From positions 62,001-126,000 of the forward strand of contig JAJEEV010000048.1 of assembly GCA_022820805.1 (NCBI GenBank): DNA of 64,000 nucleotides, given 5' to 3'. Below are positions 1,895 through 51,959 of the stretch, piece by piece (within the stretch, counting starts at the first letter, position 1; the number at the start of each line of letters is the position of its first letter). This stretch comes from Acidimicrobiia bacterium (lineage in GTDB: Bacteria > Actinomycetota > Acidimicrobiia > Acidimicrobiales > Aldehydirespiratoraceae). A program made the position numbers and the translations under genes. Below the pieces are notes generated by a model. That model searched no databases, had not been told where the DNA came from, and saw nothing but the letters and a program-made list of their open reading frames with translations.

Positions 1895-2113
1895 CGCTCA
1901 CACCTCCCGGCCGCCCACGCTGCCTCATCGGCGTCAGTGTAACCCGGCGCTCTGACATGAGTGGCGTCGTGGTCTCGGCCTGCCGTGTGACATGGGACAC
2001 GCCCGGACCACGCTCGCCGGCACCGCGACGGGCCGCGATGGGCCGCGATGTCCCGCGTATCCGCTCGGCCTGCATGCAGCACGCCGGGGCCGGTGCGCCA
2101 TTACCCTCGCGGC
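1895..2113. promoter_or_regulatory. Divergent intergenic region between clpC and polyprenyl synthase
   Basis: These 219 bases separate two outward-facing genes and must hold both promoters. On the clpC side a TACACT hexamer lies about 45 bases before the ATG, without a good -35 box. The polyprenyl synthase side has no obvious Shine-Dalgarno sequence. It contains two tandem copies of GGGCCGCGAT (about 2033-2052) and an inverted fragment of the dispersed repeat. No specific operator is recognised. Confidence 0.4.
2050..2073 (-). repeat. Fragment of the dispersed intergenic repeat
   Basis: The stretch reads GCGTATCCGCTCGGCCT. It is the reverse complement of the start of the repeat copy at 18809, less a few bases. 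It lies about 45 bases upstream of a plus-strand gene, so relative to transcription it faces the same way as the copies in front of minus-strand genes. Confidence 0.45.
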
Positions 2114-3971: not shown

Positions 3972-4098
3972 GGAGGCCGAGCAAGCAGGCGAGCGATTCC
4001 TTCCCATACGGGCGAGGCAGTGGGCGCTGTCCTCGGATCTGGGCGGCCCGTGAGCGCAGCGAACAACAGCGGGGCGACGCGGAAGCTGCAGCTGCTCA
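3972..4098 (+). repeat. Dispersed intergenic repeat, copy A
   Basis: This is the most divergent of the five longer copies. It starts with GGAGGCCGAGC, passes CCCATACGGGCGAGGC and reaches the shared core GGCCCGTGAGCGCAGCGAAC. It fills the gap between panC and coaX. Its far end is the TCA that encodes the panC stop codon on the minus strand. Confidence 0.7.
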
Positions 4099-7293: not shown

Positions 7294-7432
7294 TAGAGGC
7301 CGAGCGAGCAGGGAAGCGCATCCGGCCCATACGGGCGAGGCCGTGGCCCGAGCGGCCCGTGAGCGCAGCGAACAAGAGCGGGAATGACCCCGTGGCGACG
7401 CGAGAGGCCTCACCTATCTGCGCGCCCTCTCA
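7294..7432 (+). repeat. Dispersed intergenic repeat, copy B
   Basis: A near-complete copy of about 139 bp starting TAGAGGCCGAGCG, passing CCCATACGGGCGAGGCCGTG and the core CGGCCCGTGAGCGCAGCGAA, and ending GCGCGCCCTCTCA. The last three bases encode the tilS stop on the minus strand. The other end lies about 50 bases before the hpt start. From the ATACGG to the AATGAC segments it is nearly identical to copies C, D and E. Confidence 0.85.
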
Positions 7433-10558: not shown

Positions 10559-10588
10559 GAGCCGCCTCTTGAGGTGCGGGTGTGAGGG

Positions 10589-10661
10589 AGCCCGAAAGGG
10601 GATTTGAACCCCTGACCTACGCTTTACGAGAGCGTCGCTCTACCGACTGAGCTATTCGGGC
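10589..10661 (-). tRNA. tRNA-Thr (CGT anticodon)
   Basis: Read on the minus strand it folds as a standard cloverleaf: 7-bp acceptor stem (GCCCGAA with TTCGGGC), 4-bp D stem, 5-bp anticodon stem ACGCT/AGCGT around the loop CTCGTAA (anticodon CGT, decoding ACG), and a 5-bp T stem with loop TTCAAAT. The CCA end is not encoded, and the discriminator base is T. Confidence 0.97.
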
Positions 10662-10708: not shown

Positions 10709-10749
10709 GGCCGGAGGCGGCGGACCTGCTCGAGAGGCGCGCGCAAGCG

Positions 10750-10872
10750 GCTGAGAGCTTGTCGCGGTGTGGCGGTGTCATTCCCGCTATTGTTCGCTGC
10801 GCTCACGGGCCGCTCGGGCCACGGCCTCGCGCCGTATGGGCCGCGTTGTCTCGCCCATTCGCTCGGCCTCTA
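10750..10872 (-). repeat. Dispersed intergenic repeat, copy C (inverted)
   Basis: On the minus strand it reads CTAGAGGCCGAGCG and then CCCATACGGCGCGAGGCCGT, the core CGGCCCGTGAGCGCAGCGAA and GGGAATGACACCG. It lies between the holB stop and tRNA-Thr. Relative to the flanking minus-strand genes it is reversed compared with copies A, B, D and E. The AGAGG end, not the TCA end, overlaps the holB stop codon (TAG). Confidence 0.82.
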
Positions 10873-14174: not shown

Positions 14175-14201
14175 GCTCAGAGGCCGAGCGGGCAGGCGAG
14201 C
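14175..14201 (+). repeat. Fragment of the dispersed intergenic repeat
   Basis: CTCAGAGGCCGAGCGGGCAG followed by GCGAGCGG, matching the left end of the family (compare copies A and E). It sits between the topA stop at 14205 and the MFS start at 14140. The core and right half of the element are missing. Confidence 0.6.
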
Positions 14202-14204
14202 GGA

Positions 14205-18808: not shown

Positions 18809-18948
18809 CAGAGGCCGAGCGGATAGATACGCGAGTCCAGCACATACGGGTGAGGCCGTGGCCCGAGCGGCCCGTGAGCGCAGCGAACAAGAGCGGAATG
18901 ACACCGTGGCGACGTGACCGGCCTGGCATCAATCCGCGCACTTTCTCA
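18809..18948 (+). repeat. Dispersed intergenic repeat, copy D
   Basis: A near-complete copy of about 140 bp beginning CAGAGGCCGAGCGGATAGAT, passing CACATACGGGTGAGGCCGTG and the core GGCCCGTGAGCGCAGCGAAC, and ending GGCATCAATCCGCGCACTTT plus CTCA. The last three bases encode the stop of the STAS gene. The first base lies about 10 bases before the HATPase start codon, so the element fills essentially the whole spacer. Confidence 0.87.
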
Positions 18949-24627: not shown

Positions 24628-25482
24628 TCAAGCGAGGCCGCCGCGGCGGGCCAGCACCGCCTCCAGCACTCCCCCGCCCACCGCAAGGGACTTGTCGGAG
24701 ATCTCCCAGCACGCCGACGGGTCGCCCCGGGCATCGACGTCGCCGATCTTGAGGCCTTGCGGCACGGTCGATCCCGACCGGATCGCGCCCCTCAGCACTC
24801 CGTCGAACGGCGCTCTGACCGCGACGCCGCTCACCTCGGCGAGCAGCTGGTCCTCGGCCACCCGATCACCGATGCCGGCGTGCCAGGCGACCTCCCCGGA
24901 GGCAGGGGCCCGCAGGACCCGGTCGGCCGCCCGCCCCCCGAGCGCGGCCGGCGTGCCCGTGTCGGGCAGGGCTGAGCCCGACCAGATCACCCGGCCCAGC
25001 CGGTGGCCCCGCATGGTCTCGACCACCGCGTGGCAGTCGCTGCCCGCGGTGAAGCCCGGACCGAGTCCTATCACCACATCGGCGTCACCGATGGACGTGT
25101 CGATGTTGCGCTTGGCCAGCCGGGCGTCCACCACTACATCGGGCCGGAGCGAGCCCAGCCCGGCCAGCTCCGGGGACACCATCACCGCGACATCGCCCCG
25201 AGCGGTCACCTTGGCCGCCTCGTCGGCACCGCCCGCCAGCACGCCCCGCATGCCCTGCACGCAGACCTCGCCGTCGGTCACCGCTGACGACAGCGCCACC
25301 GTCCGGCGGATCGTCAGGGGCTCGGGCAGCTCCAGCACCACCACCGGCCAGCCGGCCCGGGTGAGCCTCCAGGCCACGCCGGTCGCCAGGTCGCCCCCGC
25401 CCCGCAGCACGCACAGCGGCTCAGAGGCCGAGCGGGGCTCGCGCTCAGAGGCCGAGCGGCTGGATGCGCGAGTCCGGCTCAT
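24628..25482 (-). CDS. yqeB: EF2563/YqeB family protein of selenium-type molybdenum hydroxylase systems
   Basis: About 284 residues. The hallmark start LCVLRGGGDLATGVAWRLTR is a Rossmann-like GGGDLA motif, followed by ADVVIGLGPGFTAGSDCHAV and, at the C-terminus, KIGDVDARGDPSACWEISDK. This family accompanies selenium-dependent molybdenum hydroxylases (yqeB in E. coli), and some members are thought to help cofactor maturation. The first 20 or so residues (SRTRASSRSASEREPRSASE) are encoded by the dispersed repeat and a duplicated piece of it, so the native start may have been replaced. A shorter start near codon 22 is possible. Confidence 0.82.
   Translation of the reverse strand: MSRTRASSRSASEREPRSASEPLCVLRGGGDLATGVAWRLTRAGWPVVVLELPEPLTIRRTVALSSAVTDGEVCVQGMRGVLAGGADEAAKVTARGDVAVMVSPELAGLGSLRPDVVVDARLAKRNIDTSIGDADVVIGLGPGFTAGSDCHAVVETMRGHRLGRVIWSGSALPDTGTPAALGGRAADRVLRAPASGEVAWHAGIGDRVAEDQLLAEVSGVAVRAPFDGVLRGAIRSGSTVPQGLKIGDVDARGDPSACWEISDKSLAVGGGVLEAVLARRGGLA
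25420..25459 (+). repeat. Direct duplication of the repeat's left end at the yqeB start
   Basis: GCTCAGAGGCCGAGCGG occurs at about 25420 and again at about 25444, 24 bases apart. The second copy opens the full-length element E. The duplicated piece lies inside the 5' coding region of the YqeB-like gene. Confidence 0.8.
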
Positions 25483-25586
25483 ACGGCGCGAGGCCGTGGC
25501 CCGAGCGGCCCGTGAGCGCAGCGAACAAGAGCGGGAATGACACCGCTACTACGCGATGAGCCCGGCATCAATTCGCGCCCTTGTCA
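25445..25586 (+). repeat. Dispersed intergenic repeat, copy E
   Basis: The longest copy, about 142 bp: TCAGAGGCCGAGCGGCTGGA, then CTCATACGGCGCGAGGCCGT, the core GGCCCGTGAGCGCAGCGAAC, GGGAATGACACCG and an end GGCATCAATTCGCGCCCTTG plus TCA. The last three bases encode the xdhC stop. It occupies the whole spacer between xdhC and the YqeB-like gene and supplies the 5' end of the latter's reading frame. Confidence 0.9.
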
Positions 25587-26387
25587 GGTCCGGCGATGGG
25601 CGATCACCTCGGCCATGATGCTCAGAGCGATCTCCTCGGGGGTCTCGGCGCCCACCTCGATGCCGATGGGAGCGTGGACCCGGTCGAGAGCGGCGGGATC
25701 GGTGCCCCCGGCCTCCAGGCGGGCCCGGGTGGTGGCCCAGCGGCGCTCGCTGCCCATCACCCCCACGTAACCGGCGCCGGTGGCCAGCAGCGCCGGCAGG
25801 GCCGCCGAGTCCACGTCCACGTTGCGGGTCACCAGCACCACCGACACGTCGGCGTCGAGAGTCCGCCCTGCCAGCAGGTCGTCGACCGAGCCGACGACCA
25901 GCTCATCGGGGGCTCCACTGCCCGGCTCGCCCTCGAGGGAATCGGGATCCTCCCCGTCGCCTGCAGCGTCGTCCATCCCGGCCCGATCGTCGGAGGCCAC
26001 CACACGGAACCCCAGCCAGTGGGCCAGCTGGGCCACCGCCCGCCCGACGTGTCCGTATCCGATGACCATGACGGTGGGCTTGGGCATGTGCGGCTCCACG
26101 AATATCTGGACGTCGCCCCCGCAGACGCCGGGATCGCCCCGGACGGGGTCGACTAGACGGTACGAAAGCAGACGGCAGCGGCCGTCGGCAAGCGCGGCTA
26201 CCCCCTCGGCCACCACCCGGGCCTCCATCTCACCCCCGCCGACGGTGCCTGAGATGCTGCCGTCGCGGAACACCAGCATCTTGGCCCCGGCCCTCCGGGG
26301 TACCGAGCGCGACGTGTCGACCACGGTGGCGGAGGCCACCGCCACGCCGCCATCGACAGCGCGGGCGAGCTGGCGGAGCAGGCTCAC
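25584..26387 (-). CDS. xdhC: XdhC family molybdenum-cofactor chaperone
   Basis: About 267 residues. XdhC proteins bind molybdenum cofactor, promote its sulfuration and insert it into xanthine-dehydrogenase-type enzymes. Visible motifs are GTVGGGEMEARVV and GDPGVCGGDVQIFVEP in the N-terminal domain, a Rossmann-fold C-terminal domain starting VMVIGYGHVGRAVAQLA, and YVGVMGSERRWATTRARL. An acidic insert of about 25 residues sits in the Rossmann domain (GDGEDPDSLEGEPGSG). The GTG at 26387 fits the spacing after the amidohydrolase; an upstream in-frame start at 26498 would overlap that gene by 80 bases. Confidence 0.9.
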   Translation of the reverse strand: MSLLRQLARAVDGGVAVASATVVDTSRSVPRRAGAKMLVFRDGSISGTVGGGEMEARVVAEGVAALADGRCRLLSYRLVDPVRGDPGVCGGDVQIFVEPHMPKPTVMVIGYGHVGRAVAQLAHWLGFRVVASDDRAGMDDAAGDGEDPDSLEGEPGSGAPDELVVGSVDDLLAGRTLDADVSVVLVTRNVDVDSAALPALLATGAGYVGVMGSERRWATTRARLEAGGTDPAALDRVHAPIGIEVGAETPEEIALSIMAEVIAHRRT

Positions 26388-26418
26388 GACCGCGGCCTGC
26401 CAGCCGTGGAGACCGGGC

Positions 26419-27771
26419 TCATGACCACAGTCTCGCGGCCTGTTCGAGGGTGCGGGCCCGCAGCCGGTCCATGTCGGCGCCGACGACCACGCCTCCATCG
26501 ACGATCCAGTCCCCTCCCACCATCACCTTGCCCACATGCGCGGCGTTGCGCCACAGCACCAGCTGGTCGACCAGGTTGTGGGCCTCCACCGGGGTGGGCA
26601 GGCCCGTCGGGCCGTCGATGTCGACCAGTTGCAGGTCGGCGTGCCAGCCCGGCTCGAGCCGGCCGACCCGCTCCAGGCCGAGCGTGCGAGCCGCGCCCTC
26701 GGTGGCCATGTGCAGCACGGTGTCCGCACTGATGGCGCCGGGATCGAGGGTGGCGGCCCGGTGCAGCAGGAAGGCGCCGCGCATCACCGCGAACATGTCG
26801 TTCAGGTAGCCGTCGGAGCCGAGCCCGACGGTGACGTCCCGGGCCAGCATCTCCAGTACGGGAGCGATCCCGCCTCCCACCTCGCAGTTGGACAGCGGCA
26901 TGTGCGACACCCGGATGCCGGTGTCGCCGATGATCTCGATCTCGCGGGGCGTCAGCTGCACGCACTGGCTGGCCTGGAAGCGGGGCGACGCCACCCCGAT
27001 CCGGTCATAGAACTCGAGGGTCCGCATCCCGTGGTGCTCGGCGCACCAGCGGCCCTCGTGCACTCCCTCGTTGACATGGGCGTGGCAGAACACGTCCAGG
27101 GACGCGGCCGCCTCGAACGCCTGGCGGATGAAGGGCTCGCTGCACGTGAACGTGGTGTGGATGCACATGGCTCCCGACACCCGCGACCGCGGGCCGGCGG
27201 CGGCCCGGCACGCCTCGATGAAGCGGACATTCTCGTCGATGCCGGCCTGGCCGTTGGCCGCCCCCATGCGCTCGGTGGCCTCGAACGACAGCACGCCCCG
27301 CAGGCCGCTGCGGTCCACCGCCTCCCGCTGCGCGGACAGGGCGTCGGGCAGGGCGTTGGGCGCCTCCAGGATGTCGAAGAAGCTGGTGGTGCCGCCGGCG
27401 GCCAGCTCGGCGGTCACCCACGCCGCCGCGGCGGAGATCATCTCGTGGTCGAGGGCGTTCTCCACCAGGGGCCACCAGTAGTCGTCCAGGAACCCCCAGA
27501 AGTCGGCCACCGGCGCAGCCGGAGCGGGAACACCGTGGGCGAGCACCCCGTAGAGGTGCACGTGGGCGTTGACGAAGCCGGGCAGCAGCACGCAGCCGGA
27601 GCCGTCGCAGAAGTCGTCGTCGGGGTGGCGGGCCCGCAGCTCGGGCTCGGGGCCGGAGTCGTCGATCAGCCCGCCGGCCACCCGGACCGCCCAGTTGCGG
27701 CGGGGCTCGTCCAGCGCGGCGGTCACCGCCCAGTCCGCTCCGACGATCAACCCCCTGTCGCCCATGGCCAA
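26419..27771 (-). CDS. ssnA: Amidohydrolase family protein, SsnA-like
   Basis: A 450-residue metal-dependent deaminase-type TIM barrel of the Atz/Trz/SsnA group. Metal ligands sit in LPGFVNAHVHLYG, FCHAHVNEG and GLGSDGYLND. In E. coli ssnA lies beside ygfM and xdhD, and the same company is kept here: it follows the XdhD-like gene by 25 bases. Members deaminate or dechlorinate N-heterocycles such as guanine or triazines. A purine-like substrate is inference; the enzyme class is well supported. Confidence 0.86.
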   Translation of the reverse strand: MAMGDRGLIVGADWAVTAALDEPRRNWAVRVAGGLIDDSGPEPELRARHPDDDFCDGSGCVLLPGFVNAHVHLYGVLAHGVPAPAAPVADFWGFLDDYWWPLVENALDHEMISAAAAWVTAELAAGGTTSFFDILEAPNALPDALSAQREAVDRSGLRGVLSFEATERMGAANGQAGIDENVRFIEACRAAAGPRSRVSGAMCIHTTFTCSEPFIRQAFEAAASLDVFCHAHVNEGVHEGRWCAEHHGMRTLEFYDRIGVASPRFQASQCVQLTPREIEIIGDTGIRVSHMPLSNCEVGGGIAPVLEMLARDVTVGLGSDGYLNDMFAVMRGAFLLHRAATLDPGAISADTVLHMATEGAARTLGLERVGRLEPGWHADLQLVDIDGPTGLPTPVEAHNLVDQLVLWRNAAHVGKVMVGGDWIVDGGVVVGADMDRLRARTLEQAARLWS

Positions 27772-42859: not shown

Positions 42860-43657
42860 TCAGCGGCCCTGCCAGCGGAGGGCGCGGCCCTCGGCGAAGG
42901 CTGCGGGGCCCTCGGCCGCGTCGGCGGACGCGAGCACCGCCTCGTAGGCGGCCAGCTCCCCCGATCGCAGCAGCTCGAAGGCCTCGACCAGCGGCAGGTG
43001 CCGGGTGCTGTCGCGGATCTGTTGGATGGCCGCGACCGAGAGCGGAGCGGCCTCGACCACGCGGGCGGCGAGGGCTCGGGCCTCGCTCATCAGGTCGGCG
43101 GCTCCGACCACCGAGTTGACGAGGCCCCAGCGCAGCGCAGCGGCCGCGTCGAGGCGCCGGCCCGCGAAGAGGATCTCGTTGGCGACCGCGGGCGGCAGCA
43201 TCCTGGGCAGGCGCACCGACCCGCTGTCGGGCAGCATCCCCAGCGAGGCCTCCGGAAGCCAGAAGCGGGCATGGTCGGCGGCCACCACGAGATCGGCGGC
43301 GAGGACGATCTCGAACCCGCCGCCGACGGCCATGCCGTTGACCGCTGCGATCACCGGCTTGAGCAGGCCTGGCAGCTCACCGAAGCCGCCGAAGCCGCCC
43401 TCGCCGTAGTCGGCCTCGAACTGCTCGCCCTCCGCGGCCGCATTGAGATCCCATCCGGCGCAGAAGAACCGGTCTCCGGCGCCGGTGAGGATCGCGACCC
43501 GGAGGTCGGGGTCGTCGCGGAAGCCGGCGAACAGGCGGCTCAACTCCCGGCTGGTGGCCGCGTCGATGGCGTTGGCCTTGCCGCGGTCGAGGGTGACTTC
43601 GAGCACCGGGCCGTCGGCGACGGCCCTGAACGCACCCGAGGCAGCCTCGTCACCCAT
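42860..43657 (-). CDS. Enoyl-CoA hydratase/isomerase family protein (CaiD-like)
   Basis: About 265 residues of the crotonase fold. Oxyanion-hole segments are FFCAGWDLNAAAEG and NGMAVGGGFEIVLAADLVVA, followed by WLPEASLGMLPDSGSVRLPR with the Glu of the active-site region. FCAGWDL and the nearby GFGGFGEL stretch resemble carnitinyl-CoA dehydratases, which fits the betaine/carnitine setting, but other enoyl-CoA substrates are possible. The start is ATG 43657 or codons upstream at 43666. It overlaps the acyl-CoA synthetase gene end. Confidence 0.85.
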   Translation of the reverse strand: MGDEAASGAFRAVADGPVLEVTLDRGKANAIDAATSRELSRLFAGFRDDPDLRVAILTGAGDRFFCAGWDLNAAAEGEQFEADYGEGGFGGFGELPGLLKPVIAAVNGMAVGGGFEIVLAADLVVAADHARFWLPEASLGMLPDSGSVRLPRMLPPAVANEILFAGRRLDAAAALRWGLVNSVVGAADLMSEARALAARVVEAAPLSVAAIQQIRDSTRHLPLVEAFELLRSGELAAYEAVLASADAAEGPAAFAEGRALRWQGR

Positions 43658-45752
43658 CGGCCACAACCATCAGCGCGTCGGCGGCCACGGCGGCCTGCGA
43701 CGTGACCAGGAGGGGGTTGATCTCGACTTCGACGATGCTCCGATCGTCGCGCACCAGCGCGCTGAGCGCCGAGACCGCGTCGACCACGGCATCGACAGCA
43801 CCGGCGGGACGGCCCCGGTAGCCGGCGAGCAGGGCCCAGAGCCGAAGCCCCCGCAGCGCTTCGAGGATCCGGCTCTCCGTGGCCGGGAGCAGCAGGCTCG
43901 CGGTGTCGTCCAGCAGCTCCGCCAGGGTGCCGCCGGCTCCAAGCGTGAGCAGCATCCCCACCGGCGGCGAGGACCGCACACTCACCAGCAACTCGGCCAC
44001 GACATCGGTGACCGCGGACTCCACGATCACAGTCCCGTCTCCGGCTGCGGCCAGCCGATGCGCGGCGGCCGCCACCGCCTCGGTGTCGGTGAGCCCGACC
44101 ACCACCGCGCCGTCATCGGTCTTGTGGGCCGGGCCGGAGGCCTTGACCACGACCGGACAACCGATCCGGTCGGCTGCGGCCGCAGCCTCCTCGGGAACAA
44201 CCCGCCGGCCCTCCGGCACGACGATGCCGGCTGCAGCTAGTCGCGGCTTCGCCTCATGCTCGACCAGGACGGTCGCGCCGAGGCCGGGATCTCGGGCCGG
44301 GGCCAGCAACGGGAGCTGGTGGCTGCCGGTCCGGTGGCCCCAAGCCGACGCGGCCTCCAGCGCGGCGAGGGCGGTGTCGATGTCGCCGCATGCGGCCACA
44401 CCCAGCTCGGCGGCCCGGGCGCGGGCGCCTGAAGGCAGGTTCTCCGCCAGCGAGGCCGCCAGCACGCCGGCGGTGCCGCTGGCGTCGCAGGCCGCAGCGA
44501 AGGCCCGCAGGGTCGGCCACCAGCGTGACCGGTCCAATCCCTCGGCGGGGAAGTCGAGCACCAGGAGGGCGGCGTCGAACGGTGCTTCCGGAGCCCGTTC
44601 GCTGCGCTCACCGGACGCTCGGCCCGCGGCCGGGCCGGCTTCGTCGCCCGCAGCCGACAGGGCGGCTCCGAAGCAAGCGGCCAGCCGCGCCTCCTCGCCC
44701 CAGATGAAGGTGTGGTAGTCGAGCGGGTTGGTGACTGCGACCCGGCCGTCCAGCGCGGACGCCACCCGAGCGGCGTGTTCAGGGGTGAACGGGGGGAACC
44801 GGAGGTTCCGGCCCTGGCTGCGGTCCGCGACCAGTGCGGCCTCGCCGCCGGAGCAGCTCAACGACACCAGCCGGTTGCCGTCGAGCGGTCCGAGTGTGCA
44901 CAGCACGCCCAGGATGTCGAGCAGTTCGGGGATCGTGCGTGCCCGCCGGATGCCCAGTTCATCGAACAGCGCGCCGTAGGCGGCGTCGTCGCCCACCAGC
45001 GACGCGGTGTGGGTGACGGCTATGGCACCGGAGGACTTCGAGGCCCCGAGCTTGAGGGCCACCACCGGCAGGCCCCTGCGCTTCGCCACGGCCGCGGCCG
45101 CGGCGAAGCGGTCGACGTCGTCGAGCCCCTCGATGCACAGGCCCACCCCGGTGGCCGCCCCGTCAGCGACCACAGCCTCGAAGGCCTCCGAGACGCCCAC
45201 ATCGGCCTGGTTCCCGAGCGTCACCACCCAGGCCACGTCGAGGCCGCGGCGCTGCATGGTCAGGTTCACCGCGATGTTGCCGCTCTGGCTCAGCAGCGCC
45301 ACGCCGCGCTCGCGGCGGGTGAGGCCGTGAACATCGGGCCACAGGGCGGCACCGGTCAGCGCCGACAGTAGCCCGTAACAGTTGGGACCGAGCACCGGCA
45401 TCCCCGCGGCTGCGGCCACCAGCTCGTGCTGCAGGGCCGCTCCGGCCTCGCCGGTCTCGGCGAATCCCGACGCGTGGCACACCGCGGCGCCGGTGCCGTT
45501 AGCGGCCAGCCTGCCGACCACGTCGATGGAGGCGTGGCGGTCCACGCCGACGAAGGCGGCGTCGATCCCGGCCGGCAGCTCGCTCGCCGATGCGACGGTG
45601 GGCAGGCCGCCGAGCTCCCGCCGGGGATTGACCGCCCACATCTCGCCCACGAAGCCGAAGGAGCGGCAGGCCTCGATGGACAGCTCGGCGGCCGCGCCCC
45701 CGACGAAGGCCAGCGACCGCGGCCTCAGCAGCCGATCGAGCCGCCGCGCCAT
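43650..45752 (-). CDS. Acyl-CoA synthetase, NDP-forming (Acs/ACD family)
   Basis: 700 residues with the fused alpha-beta layout: a CoA-binding domain from SLAFVGGAAAELSIEAC, a ligase-CoA domain with GPNCYGLLSAL and LLSQSGNIAVNLTMQRRGLD, then an ATP-grasp half with AGIVVPEGRRVVPEEAAAAA, VVVKASGPAHKTDDGAVVVG and EVEINPLLV. It activates a carboxylic acid to its CoA thioester. The ATG at 45752 sits 6 bases after the acyl-CoA dehydrogenase gene. Residues GRASGERSERAPE in the middle are encoded by a fragment of the dispersed repeat. Confidence 0.88.
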   Translation of the reverse strand: MARRLDRLLRPRSLAFVGGAAAELSIEACRSFGFVGEMWAVNPRRELGGLPTVASASELPAGIDAAFVGVDRHASIDVVGRLAANGTGAAVCHASGFAETGEAGAALQHELVAAAAGMPVLGPNCYGLLSALTGAALWPDVHGLTRRERGVALLSQSGNIAVNLTMQRRGLDVAWVVTLGNQADVGVSEAFEAVVADGAATGVGLCIEGLDDVDRFAAAAAVAKRRGLPVVALKLGASKSSGAIAVTHTASLVGDDAAYGALFDELGIRRARTIPELLDILGVLCTLGPLDGNRLVSLSCSGGEAALVADRSQGRNLRFPPFTPEHAARVASALDGRVAVTNPLDYHTFIWGEEARLAACFGAALSAAGDEAGPAAGRASGERSERAPEAPFDAALLVLDFPAEGLDRSRWWPTLRAFAAACDASGTAGVLAASLAENLPSGARARAAELGVAACGDIDTALAALEAASAWGHRTGSHQLPLLAPARDPGLGATVLVEHEAKPRLAAAGIVVPEGRRVVPEEAAAAADRIGCPVVVKASGPAHKTDDGAVVVGLTDTEAVAAAAHRLAAAGDGTVIVESAVTDVVAELLVSVRSSPPVGMLLTLGAGGTLAELLDDTASLLLPATESRILEALRGLRLWALLAGYRGRPAGAVDAVVDAVSALSALVRDDRSIVEVEINPLLVTSQAAVAADALMVVADG
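44597..44631 (-). repeat. Dispersed-repeat core inside a coding sequence
   Basis: On the plus strand GTTCGCTGCGCTCAC is identical to copy C, and the next 20 bases match it at about 16 positions. It lies in frame within the acyl-CoA synthetase gene, in the variable linker before the ATP-grasp half, and encodes part of GRASGERSERAP. Confidence 0.65.
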
Positions 45753-45757
45753 GCCGT

Positions 45758-46918
45758 TCAGCAGCCGAGGGGCCGCAGCATGTCCCGCGACACGATGTGG
45801 CGCTGGATCTCGCTGGTGCCGTCCCAGATACGGTCGACGCGGGCGTCCCGCCAGATCCGCTCCAGGGGCAGCTCGTCCATCAGCCCCATGCCGCCCAGGA
45901 TCTGGATGGCCTCGTCCGACACGAACTGGAGCATCTCGGTGGCCGACAGTTTGGCCATGGCCGCGTCGGCGTCGGTCATCTCGCCCCGCGCCGAGAGCCA
46001 CGCGGCCCGGTAGGTCGTCAACTCGGCCTCCAGCAGCCGGGTGCGCATGTCGGCCAGCTTGAAGGACACGCCCTGGAACCGCCCGATCCGCTGCCCGAAC
46101 TGCTCGCGGGTGGCGGCCCAGTCGAGGGCCACCGCCAGGGCCCGGTCGGCTCGCCCGAGGCACACCGCCGCGACCTGGAGACGGGTGCTGCCGAGCCACT
46201 CGTTAGCCACGTCGAAGCCGCCGTGCTCGGCGCCGAGCAGCTTCGATGCCGGAACCCGGGCATCGTCGAAGTTGACGATGAAGTTGTGGTAGCCGCGGTT
46301 CGACACGCAGTTGTATCCGGGGACCCGCTCCACCCCCGGCGTGTCGAAGTCCACCAGGAACGACGAGATCTGCCTGCGCGGGCCCCGGTCGGTGTCGGCG
46401 ATGCCGGTGGCCGCGAACAGGATCACGTAGTCGGCGAGGTCGGCGTGGCTGATGAAGTGCTTGGTGCCGTTCACGACGAAGTCGCCGCCGCGGCGCTCGG
46501 CCCGGCAGGCCATGCCCCGCAGGTCGGATCCGGCGCCGGGCTCGCTCATCGCCAGGCACTCCACCCGCTCCCCCCTCACGGTGGGCAGCAGGTACTCGGT
46601 GACCTGGTCGCCGGTGCAGGCCCGCAGGATGTTGGACGGCCGGGCCACGATGTAGTGCAGGGCGTAGGCGGTCCAGCCGAAGGCCCGCTCGGCCATGGCC
46701 AGGGTGAGGTCGTCGAGGCCGCCCCCGCCGAGCTCGACGGGCATGTTGGCCGCGTAGAGGCCGGCGTCGATGGACCGGCTGCGGATCTGGTGCACGAGCT
46801 CCGGCGGAACCTCGCCGGTGCGCTCGACCTCCTCCTCGTGGGGTACGAGCTCGCGTTGCACGAAGGCCCGCACGGTGTCGACCACCATCTGCTGGGAGTC
46901 ATCGATCGAGAAGTCCAA
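45758..46918 (-). CDS. Acyl-CoA dehydrogenase
   Basis: 386 residues, standard length. FAD-dependent alpha,beta-desaturation of an acyl-CoA. Signatures are CLAMSEPGAGSDLRGMACRA, FVVNGTKHFISHADLADYV, REQFGQRIGRFQGVSFKLAD and the C-terminal RDARVDRIWDGTSEIQRHIV, which holds the usual catalytic-base region. With the hydratase, CoA ligase and carnitine dehydrogenase around it, it may act on a trimethylammonio-acyl-CoA, but the specificity cannot be read directly. Confidence 0.92.
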   Translation of the reverse strand: MDFSIDDSQQMVVDTVRAFVQRELVPHEEEVERTGEVPPELVHQIRSRSIDAGLYAANMPVELGGGGLDDLTLAMAERAFGWTAYALHYIVARPSNILRACTGDQVTEYLLPTVRGERVECLAMSEPGAGSDLRGMACRAERRGGDFVVNGTKHFISHADLADYVILFAATGIADTDRGPRRQISSFLVDFDTPGVERVPGYNCVSNRGYHNFIVNFDDARVPASKLLGAEHGGFDVANEWLGSTRLQVAAVCLGRADRALAVALDWAATREQFGQRIGRFQGVSFKLADMRTRLLEAELTTYRAAWLSARGEMTDADAAMAKLSATEMLQFVSDEAIQILGGMGLMDELPLERIWRDARVDRIWDGTSEIQRHIVSRDMLRPLGC

Positions 46919-49922: not shown

Positions 49923-51959
49923 TCAGGAACCGGCGCCGCCTCCGGTCTCCTTGACGAGATCGTCGAGCCTCACACCGAAGGCCGCTACCTGCGCTCTGGT
50001 GACCGAGCCGCCGGGGTCGTATGTCGTGGGAGTCTTGCCCGTGGTAAGGCCGAGCGCATGCAGGCAGGCGATGTTGTCGGCGTGCACGCTTGAGGGGTCG
50101 ACATCCTCGAAGGCCAGTTCGGCGTCGACCGGGCAGGTACGGCCCGCAAGGCGCCACATACGGACAAGGAACGATGCCGTCTGGGCCCGGGTGACAAGCT
50201 TCGAGGGCGAGTAGGTGGAGGGCGTTGTGCCCGAAGTGATGCCGACGGCCTGTAGGCACGCGGCGTCGCTGCGAAGCTGGCCCGGGGCGATATCAAGGAA
50301 GCGTGTGCCGTCGGCAGGGCAGTCGCCGCCCAGCACCTGCCACAGGCGCACTAGCGGGGCCGCCACTTCGGCCCGTGTAGCGGGCCGGTTTGGTTCGTAG
50401 TTGCCGCTAGTCGTGCCGGTGACGATCCCCCGCTGTGCCGCTGCGAGCACTTCCGGGCCGAGAGAGTGGGTGTCCGGGAGGTCGCCGAAGGATGCCGCCT
50501 GGCCCTCCGGCAACTGCACCGGCGTGTTCGGCGGCGGGTCGGGCGGGCTGATAAGGCAGCCGACGCCCTCGCCTGGTCCGATGCCGTTGCTGCTGATGGC
50601 ATACACACCGAACACGTAGATGCCCGGCTGAAGGTCATCGAAGGTGATGCTGGTGTCGGAGGTGGTGCGCATGATCTCTGCCTCACCCCACACTGCGACC
50701 TCATAGCTCTCCGCGCCCGCGACCGCGTCCCACCTCAACGTGATCGCCGACGAACCTGCCGAGCACGACATGTTGGCCGGCGCCACCAGCGCAGGGTCAT
50801 ACTCCGGCCCGGGATCGGGCTCAGGCTGCCCGCCGACCGTGCAGTTCGTGCGACCCACCTCCTGATAGACGTCATCGACAAGAGCCTCCACCCACACGCT
50901 GTAGGTGCCCTCCGTCATGCTCACGAAAGTGTGCCGGGTCTTGTCGATGTCGCCCTCCCACACGAGCTGCCCCACCCTGGGGTGGCCCGACGAATGCTCC
51001 CCCCAGACCCAGAACTGGACCGCGCCGGCCACAGCACTCCATTGCACCGACATCGTGTCGCCGTCCACCGAACACGACACGGAGTGATCCGCCGGCGGGT
51101 CCGGAGGCTCAGTGGCCGGTGGAACGGTGGTCGTCGTTGTCGTCGGCGGAGGCGCCGGGTCGGACACCGGCTGGTTGGAGTCCTGTATTAGGCAGCCGAC
51201 GCCCTCGCCTGGTCCGATGCCGTTGCTGCTGATGGCATACACACCGAACACGTAGATGCCCGGCTGAAGGTCATCGAAGGTGATGCTGGTGCCGGTGGTG
51301 GTGCGCATGATCTCTGCCTCACCCCACATCGCGACCTCATAGCTCTCCGCGCCCGCGACCGCGTCCCACCTCAACGTGATCGACGACGAACCTGCCGAGC
51401 ACGACATGTTGGCCGGCGCCGCCAGCGCAGGGTCATACTCCGGCTCCGGATCGGGCTCGGCCGGCGGAACGGTCGTCGTAGTGGTGGTCGTGGTCGTAGT
51501 GGTGGTCGTGGTCGTGGTCGGGACGGTCGTGGTCGTCGGCGAGTCGGAGGGCGCTTCGATCCGGCAGCCGGCGCCGTTTCCGGGGCCGGTCTCGTCGCCG
51601 CGCATGGAGACCACGCTCACCACATAGATCCCGGGCGACAGGCCACCGAAGGTGGCGCTGGTGCCGGTGGTGGTGGTCGTCCTCTCCGCGTCGCCCCAGA
51701 CGCTGACCTCATAGCTGTCCGCGCCCGCTGCCGCCGTCCACGTCACGGTGATCGACGACGTGCCGGGCGTGCACGTCACGTTGCCGGGCGCACCCAGTTC
51801 CGTCTGCTGGACGGTCGTCCCCGGCGGCGGATCGGTGGACGCTCCCTGCGCGTGCGCGCTGGCTGTCAGAATCGGGCCAGCCGAGAGCAGCGAAGTAACA
51901 GCACAGGCAGCCACGCCGGGCCGTAGCCGACCCCAGGGAGTCCGACGCATCGGCGGCAC
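49923..51959 (-). CDS. Secreted fibronectin-III and SLH-domain protein
   Basis: 678 residues. A signal peptide (MRRTPWGRLRPGVAACAVTS onward, cleaved near AHAQG) is followed by four FN3-like domains: about residues 57-135, 184-260, 291-375 and 392-475. Domains 2 and 4 are nearly identical. Linkers are Thr-rich; the first holds a long (T)n run. The C-terminus carries three SLH-type units ending RAEVAAPLVRLW, RAQTASFLVRMW and RAQVAAFGVRL. In many cell walls SLH units bind secondary polymers, so the protein is probably surface-anchored. Confidence 0.88.
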   Translation of the reverse strand: MPPMRRTPWGRLRPGVAACAVTSLLSAGPILTASAHAQGASTDPPPGTTVQQTELGAPGNVTCTPGTSSITVTWTAAAGADSYEVSVWGDAERTTTTTGTSATFGGLSPGIYVVSVVSMRGDETGPGNGAGCRIEAPSDSPTTTTVPTTTTTTTTTTTTTTTTVPPAEPDPEPEYDPALAAPANMSCSAGSSSITLRWDAVAGAESYEVAMWGEAEIMRTTTGTSITFDDLQPGIYVFGVYAISSNGIGPGEGVGCLIQDSNQPVSDPAPPPTTTTTTVPPATEPPDPPADHSVSCSVDGDTMSVQWSAVAGAVQFWVWGEHSSGHPRVGQLVWEGDIDKTRHTFVSMTEGTYSVWVEALVDDVYQEVGRTNCTVGGQPEPDPGPEYDPALVAPANMSCSAGSSAITLRWDAVAGAESYEVAVWGEAEIMRTTSDTSITFDDLQPGIYVFGVYAISSNGIGPGEGVGCLISPPDPPPNTPVQLPEGQAASFGDLPDTHSLGPEVLAAAQRGIVTGTTSGNYEPNRPATRAEVAAPLVRLWQVLGGDCPADGTRFLDIAPGQLRSDAACLQAVGITSGTTPSTYSPSKLVTRAQTASFLVRMWRLAGRTCPVDAELAFEDVDPSSVHADNIACLHALGLTTGKTPTTYDPGGSVTRAQVAAFGVRLDDLVKETGGGAGS
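50554..50807 (-). repeat. 254-bp direct repeat, copy 1 (fourth FN3 domain)
   Basis: From AGGCAGCCGACGCCCTCGCC to GGGTCATACTCCGG. It matches copy 2 (51190-51443) at nearly every base, with a handful of substitutions around the TGTCGGAGGTGG segment and one codon in the ATCGCCGACGAA segment. The offset of 636 bases is a whole number of codons. Confidence 0.9.
51190..51443 (-). repeat. 254-bp direct repeat, copy 2 (second FN3 domain)
   Basis: Second copy of the unit described at 50554-50807. Near-identity at the DNA level, including synonymous positions, implies recent duplication or gene conversion between FN3 modules. Confidence 0.9.

Follow-up and report, generated by a model that had tools for sequence, protein, structure and literature searches.

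The window, that is the whole analysed stretch of 64,000 nucleotides (G000:C3:62001-126000), belongs to a MAG of 3.40 Mb in 53 contigs that is 94.8% complete. It carries full copies and fragments of a short repeat (Table 1). Copies B, C, and D share about 86% identity with copy E over the matched part. The span 25445-25586 delimited in an earlier note on this DNA corresponds exactly to the element together with both 3-bp target duplications. Of the five near-complete copies named there, those at 7294, 10750, 18809, and 25445 are full, whereas the one at 3972 lacks the right part and has a rearranged core. The string GGGAATGACACCG occurs exactly in just two window copies, at 25533 and 10773. 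Four fragments had been proposed in addition; 14175 is a good left end and 44597 a core fragment, but 2050 and 19794 are based on a short end motif. With one mismatch allowed, this motif gave 67 matches in a reversed-sequence control (1.16 Mb of loci, both strands, not de-duplicated). This rate amounts to about 4 per 64 kb, and single occurrences such as those at 2050 and 19794 are therefore near chance. The repeat had also been described as intergenic, which does not apply to the fragment at 44597, as it sits inside a reading frame.

Table 1. Features of the repeat family in the window
Feature	Position	Strand	Evidence
Copy E, full-length element, 136 bp	25448-25583	+	38-copy alignment, profile match, empty site, exact ends
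Copy E, left target-site duplication TCA (target CTCAG)	25445-25447	.	G008 empty site
Copy E, left terminal inverted repeat GAGGCCGAGCG..., first arm of hairpin 1	25448-25465	+	copy alignment; pairing by compensatory change
Copy E, inner arm GCGAGGCCGT, partner of left terminal repeat	25488-25497	+	compensatory changes
Copy E, near-invariant core GGCCCGAGCGGCCCGTGAGCGNAGCGAACAAGAGCGGGAA	25498-25537	+	nearly fixed except N in 80 copies not picked by the core 40-mer
Copy E, possible hairpin 2, GTGAGC-GNA-GCGAAC, N being the freest core base	25512-25526	+	inferred from sequence, one double change
Copy E, right terminal inverted repeat, more variable	25562-25583	+	copy alignment
Copy E, right target-site duplication TCA, stop codon (TGA) of minus-strand frame 25584-26498	25584-25586	.	
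Left-end-like stretch, 21 bp, before TCA of copy E; diverged form also in G008	25424-25444	+	
Copy B, full	7296-7429	+	profile match
Copy C, full	10735-10870	-	profile match
Copy D, full	18811-18945	+	profile match
Copy A, no right end; left end plus rearranged core	3973-4087	+	
Left-end fragment between TCA and TCAG	14180-14204	+	
Core fragment, 35 bp, 88.6%, E about 1e-7, inside reading frame 43650-46199 (-)	44597-44631	-	
Weak left-end-like fragment	2030-2072	-	

The core fragment at 44597-44631 is in frame within 43650-46199 (-) and adds the peptide RASGERSER to a protein that we take to be an acyl-CoA synthetase-type enzyme. A tRNA-Thr gene lies near copy C (10587-10661, predicted by both tRNA tools), and a tRNA-Asp at 51107-51194 was predicted by ARAGORN alone.

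The genome and its relatives were searched as the earlier note had proposed. In the source genome a 54-base core pattern gave 110 matches with at most 3 mismatches, 39 of them perfect, against 0 for the reversed pattern; a 22-mer from the left end matched 129 times (control 0) and a 37-base core, again with up to 3 mismatches, 144 times (control 0). The repeat is thus real and far above chance. A family of fewer than about ten copies, or copies that are parts of duplicated genes, the two outcomes that had been named as speaking against such an element, are both excluded.

Among 51 genomes of the family, the 37-base core was present in all 16 genomes of the genus (1 to 250 copies each) and in all six of a sister genus (1 to 35 copies each), with controls of 0, and was absent from 29 genomes of eight other genera. 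A 138-base query matched 19 of 41 genomes; two of these, G029 and G031, represent two other families of the order. Exact core matches were found in at least 106 stretches of a named collection; those listed come from MAGs named Acidimicrobiia, Acidimicrobiaceae, Acidimicrobiales, or Microthrixaceae, apart from a single contig assigned to an Alphaproteobacteria bin. This contig (L113, JAGWAT010000066.1) carries a core with the short hairpin form described below and stems from sample series 277c, which also yielded a repeat-bearing MAG of Acidimicrobiia, so that either misbinning or transfer could account for it. The bin names of several MAGs presumably reflect sponge hosts. Copies of the element lie at or near the ends of six contigs of the source genome (C1, C12, C14, C15, C28, C50), where the repeat probably broke the assembly. 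The element accounts for hundreds of repeats and some contig ends in an uncultured group of Acidimicrobiia.

The alignment of copies revealed sharp borders, the flanks being unrelated outside CTNA|GAGGCCGAGCG... and ...C|TNAG. The terminal inverted repeats are imperfect (GAGGCCGAGCGGATAGGC versus GGGGCCACGCGGATAGGT). Most copies are 133-137 bp long with indels that are not in multiples of three, and a long plus-strand frame over part of copy E has a negative codon score. At 136 bp the element is also too short to encode a transposase of its own.

Target duplications were assessed in 110 full copies, with borders taken unadjusted from the profile and copies that were incomplete or cut at locus ends dropped. 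Identical flanking triplets were found in 25 of the 110 (shuffle mean 7.0, reached in none of 5000 shuffles). TNA stood on both sides in 25 copies, 18 of them with identical triplets (mean 6.3, 0/5000), and the middle base of the two triplets agreed in 70 (mean 29.7, 0/5000). For copy E, whose layout is ...CTCA[element]TCAGG..., a base-exact empty site exists in the relative G008 (L157): this genome reads GCTCTCGCTCAGGTCCGG, and the window reads GCTCGCGCTCA, element, TCAGGTCCGG. The matches to the two flanks also abut in G005, G007, G009, G011, G012, G014, and G015, which together with G008 makes 8 of 15 relatives. They are 13 to 22 bases apart in G006, G010, and G013, and in G001, G002, and G003 the place holds other sequence of approximately 170, 1900, and 90 bases, respectively (partial alignment); these three are not counted as empty sites.

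The other full copies of the window gave a similar picture. No full copy was present at the matching place of copy B in seven relatives examined, of copy C in eight (G002 and G011 being left aside), or of copy D in twelve. Remnants were seen at the place of copy C in G012 (a core) and G003, and end-like remnants at that of copy D in G003 and perhaps G011. The insertions examined are consequently young and differ between species. At the place matching window position 7296, G003 (L252) contains a different inverted-repeat sequence, ATTCTTGACGTAGTTG...CAACTACGTCAAGAAT, instead of copy B; perhaps this is another miniature element.

Both target duplications and empty sites in relatives, which the earlier note had suggested looking for, were therefore found. 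Taken with the unrelated flanks of the copies, they refute the idea that the copies are pieces of duplicated genes or of a segmental duplication; nothing was found in favour of this explanation, which we regard as practically excluded.

The left-end pattern yielded 129 matches, of which about 100 were listed, and the right-end pattern 29; by hand, 26 of the latter were assigned to cores in the list and another to a full copy. With so few cases and shortened lists, we do not claim that truncation spares left ends more often than right ends. We considered truncated left-end copies as insertions with duplications of their own and rejected this, as 5 of 29 showed a duplication where 3.7 were expected (a few of the 29 being IS ends). 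Duplications flanking fragments are thus no commoner than expected by chance, and the TCA...TCAG pair at 14180 does not prove insertion.

A candidate helper was found in relatives. The genome G001 contains a 954-bp IS5-family element with the ends GAGGCCGCGCGGGTAGG and GAGCGTGCGCGGGTAGG, which are similar to the repeat ends. Its transposase of 305 amino acids matches PF13340 (48.8 bits) and PF01609 (29.3 bits), both over the cut-off, and the NCBIfam model for the IS5 family with 141.9 bits at a cut-off of 110, an assignment to the family and not to a subgroup. Among the 51 family genomes, 7 encode this transposase: six belong to the two repeat-carrying genera, and one, a weak match, lies elsewhere. 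Each of the related IS ends in G010, G012, G016, G046, and G065 is preceded by TTA or TAA; that of G016 has the same first bases as the repeat, GAGGCCGAGCGGG.

In the source genome, one of 17 genomes searched for each domain, there was no protein with PF01609 or PF13340, and the search of the 51 family genomes gave no relative of the helper transposase there. The transposase with matching ends that the earlier note had proposed to look for thus exists in G001 and patchily in other relatives, but none was found in the genome of the window, which counts against an IS5-type helper, although the genome is a MAG of 94.8% completeness. The same holds for the flanks of the IS in G001, TAA and TAT, which are not a clean duplication, and for the fact that IS and repeat have no sequence in common beyond the ends. 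Repeats are often lost in the assembly of genomes such as this MAG; helpers can be lost as well, and a transposase in the same genome is not a defining feature of MITEs. IS5 elements of the IS1031 group prefer TNA and make a 3-bp repeat, as outlined in the cited section of PMC12016507. That the helper is an IS5-type transposase appears very probable, and we infer that this particular IS moves the element.

The duplications and the ends also bear on whether the repeats could be palindromic units of the REP/BIME kind that are spread by a RAYT (Y1) transposase. Short hairpin units, a mostly intergenic position, hundreds of copies, and tandem cores 43-45 bp apart would fit such repeats. Transposition of the IS200/IS605 type by Y1 enzymes, however, is not known to make target duplications, and neither are REP/BIME with RAYT. 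With clear 3-bp duplications and ends that match a DDE element of the IS5 family, we hold this origin to be very improbable.

Insertion is often at gene ends. Of 118 full copies, 33 (15/43 from the source genome, 18/75 from relatives) coincide precisely with the stop codon of a frame that looks coding by a simple codon-usage score. The controls in loci of the source genome, 35 of 379 CTNAG sites and 147 of 5038 TNA sites, are rough, as some of these loci overlap and the TNA control omits the TAG variant that was allowed for the copies and for CTNAG. The simplest reading is target choice combined with the loss of harmful insertions: the TNA duplication restores TAA or TGA. The repeat shows in this way how a TNA-targeting element can occupy stop codons with little harm. 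For 64 of the 118 copies the position between genes of known direction could be determined, with 23 in the same orientation, 18 opposite, 15 between convergent, and 8 between divergent genes; there was no clear orientation bias among these 64.

Between its ends the element contains a near-invariant core. This was assessed in 80 copies, detected with a tolerance of up to 8 mismatches, from loci other than those picked by the core 40-mer. Many of these copies come from loci L001-L050, which had been chosen by similarity to the whole element; conservation in L051-L156 is biased because the exact 40-mer was used to choose these loci. Of the first 35 core positions all but one are conserved in 73 or more of the 80 copies; the exception is position 17, which can be any of the four bases (C 63, A 14, G 2, T 1). 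The spacers on either side vary much more than the core. Position 17 is the N of GC-GNA-GC, a type of loop known from DNA mini-hairpins. Stable hairpins of this sort form a known class according to the part of PMC10527192 cited here. For the possible hairpin 2 itself, one double change was seen in 204 cores, and shifted registers gave 0 to 2.

Tandem cores spaced 43-45 bp apart were encountered inside the element or without it (L246:19332-19533, L247:785-915, L252, L108), and core fragments without ends occur in relatives. These observations, together with the constancy of all but one base, might be expected if the core were a site for a host DNA protein, for example in chromosome organisation or replication, that is merely spread by the transposon. 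An essential site would however hardly vary between 1 and 250 copies among the species of one genus, and the compensatory pairing described below points to a folded strand, although the paired parts are just the left end and the arm that precedes the core proper. We consider a host-protein site unlikely.

The left end contains GGCC-GA-GC, which can pair with GC-GA-GGCC in front of the core, the variable spacer forming the loop. Over 187 copies the combination of arms was GAGGCCGAGC/GCGAGGCCGT in 117 and GAGGCTGAGC/GCGAAGCCGT in 12; GAGGCCCCGC/GCGGGGCCGT was found three times, GAGGCCGCGC with GCGCGGCCGT or GCGCGGCCGC twice, and GAGGCTGCGC/GCGCAGCCGT once. In the remaining 52 the arms are combined differently, and usually one of them is altered or decayed. 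Pairs were counted on extracted arms; the MAFFT alignment A2 (51 sequences, nearly all from 103 references) misplaces the short variants. The compensatory changes convert GA/GA to CC/GG or GC/GC and C-G to T-A. In the right register 20 of 26 cells changed on both sides are standard pairs, compared with 1, 1, 1, 4, 1, and 3 at slides of -3, -2, -1, 1, 2, and 3 and with a mean of 2.2 and a maximum of 8 in 1000 shuffles, counted as copies rather than events and with most T-A cells coming from one short subfamily. As evidence against the stem, no standard pair remains after 65 of the 96 changes that affect one side.

The short subfamily (L052, L071, L084, L103, L104, L105, L119, L121, L137, L146, and L156) has its left stem closed by a four-base loop, G-N-N-A or G-N-N-T, and the short form GGCTGAGCC-4 nt-GGCGAAGCC is found in several other MAGs. 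In CC/GG copies the right ends do not follow the change (L074, L130), so that it is not simply a changed specificity of the transposase. A stem pattern that fixed C at position 8 of the end and left the inner bases free was run on 51 genomes and gives weak support owing to its high background: the reversed control about equals the signal in most genomes, G007 standing out with 112 versus 9. After rows with a spacer unlike that of the element were dropped, some of which have GA in the inner arm, about 89 element-like rows among those listed (counted by eye, 61 from G007) comprised 86 CC/GG, one GC/GC, one AC/GC, one CC/AG, and none with GA; they may descend from few events. A second pattern (six genomes, 43 rows) forces GA in both arms and holds little information.

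RNAalifold on 36 copies proposed 15 pairs, none with both sides changed; the stem is visible only when variant subfamilies are compared. The folding energy of copy E, calculated for both strands and as DNA, is no better than that of shuffles (z-scores -0.41, 0.23, and 0.49). Folding of both strands, which the earlier note had proposed, thus gave ordinary energies; one stem is supported by compensatory changes. In Rfam, tRNA was the sole match at gathering level in the window, and around copy E three weak matches (E-values 0.3 to 1) were all far below the cut-off. Altogether we regard the hairpin of the left end as likely to be real.

Such a hairpin raises the question of an RNA module at gene ends, in which co-transcribed hairpins alter the stability or processing of neighbouring mRNA and the core is under host selection. 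The compensatory changes would fit this, and the tandem 5'-GA/GA-3' internal loop is more readily explained by folding of the plus strand than by an inverted repeat in duplex form; the near-invariant core, the insertion at gene ends, and the core fragments without ends in relatives point in the same direction. NEMIS and ERIC-type repeats are reported to affect neighbouring mRNA in the cited parts of PMC2229807 and PMC4133298. The lack of a clear orientation bias, however, argues against a strand-specific RNA role, and the full copies of the window are missing at the same places in relatives. There is likewise no Rfam match, and the folding energy is ordinary. A function of this kind appears somewhat unlikely.

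The earlier note had suggested a non-autonomous mobile element or an RNA-folding element. The former is borne out by the inverted repeats, the TNA duplications, the empty sites, and an element of the IS5 family whose ends are of the same type. As to the latter, one stem is supported by compensatory changes, but folding energies are no better than those of shuffles and the folded strand could be RNA or single-stranded DNA. The repeat is almost certainly a mobile MITE, that is, a non-autonomous DNA transposon, and the more inclusive explanation as an IS5-type MITE with a folded core is highly probable, even though the ordinary folding energy and the one-sided changes that break the stem speak against it.

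In the mechanism that we propose, the helper transposase would bind the ends of the element, which would insert at a TNA triplet, mostly within CTNAG, and this triplet would be duplicated. In this genome, which is rich in GC, many TNA triplets are stop codons or complements of stop codons, and many insertions therefore strike and restore the last codon of a gene. The folded left half would be retained as a recognition or assembly site without which source copies could not be mobilised. This role is favoured by the lack of a clear orientation bias, which by itself is no proof of it, and by the four window copies not being conserved in place; we put it forward tentatively, as a possibility with somewhat less than an even chance. 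The constant, partly paired left half sets the family apart from an ordinary MITE. More doubtful is a further reading, according to which the element carries a strand-folding module: left repeat and core would fold into a series of small hairpins containing tandem G-A pairs and a GNA loop, and either the host or the transposition machinery would recognise this series as a single strand of RNA or DNA. If this were true, the end of the transposon itself would be paired, and a DDE-type MITE would use single-strand recognition. With up to 250 copies per genome in 22 positive family genomes, the family is a natural data set for testing a constant, partly paired transposon core.

Judged by titles and abstract beginnings, none of the open-access papers found in literature searches describes this family. 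The repeat was compared with known types. MITEs are small, about 30-300 bp, and have many copies (PMC4133298, in the part cited). The repeat agrees with this class in its 136 bp, its 110-144 copies by core, its terminal inverted repeats, its target duplication, the absence of an own transposase, and ends that resemble those of an autonomous IS in G001 and other relatives. With the IS1031-like group of IS5 it has the TNA target and the 3-bp repeat in common; the ends of the member described in the cited section start with GA (PMC12016507). It differs from these IS in having no transposase and sharing only the ends with an IS. An IS5 transposase in the same genome, as might be asked of an IS5-derived element, was not found in the source genome. 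An actinobacterial IS5 member with three-base sites is described in the cited part of PMC2516522.

The RUP element of Streptococcus pneumoniae, a 107-bp MITE with 108 copies and ends like IS630-Spn1 (PMC2229807, section cited), is alike in being a small many-copy MITE with ends like one IS; it differs in its TA target and IS630-type helper, and no functional DNA motif is reported in that section. The Correia/NEMIS elements of Neisseria (107-155 bp) have terminal inverted repeats and many copies and can fold as RNA, as summarised in the same source, but their ends and target differ from those of the repeat. The MITE of Porphyromonas gingivalis with an internal minisatellite is comparable for its tandem units inside a MITE (PMC4596501). 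Most bacterial repeats fold the 5' end onto the 3' end, according to the section of PMC2229807 cited here, whereas in the present repeat the left end pairs with an internal arm. In this respect the CIR elements of Caulobacter, compared by description and not by sequence, are similar: as characterised in PMC2229807, they have separate stem–loop arms without end-to-end pairing, but they carry a GANTC motif and are only partly MITE-like.
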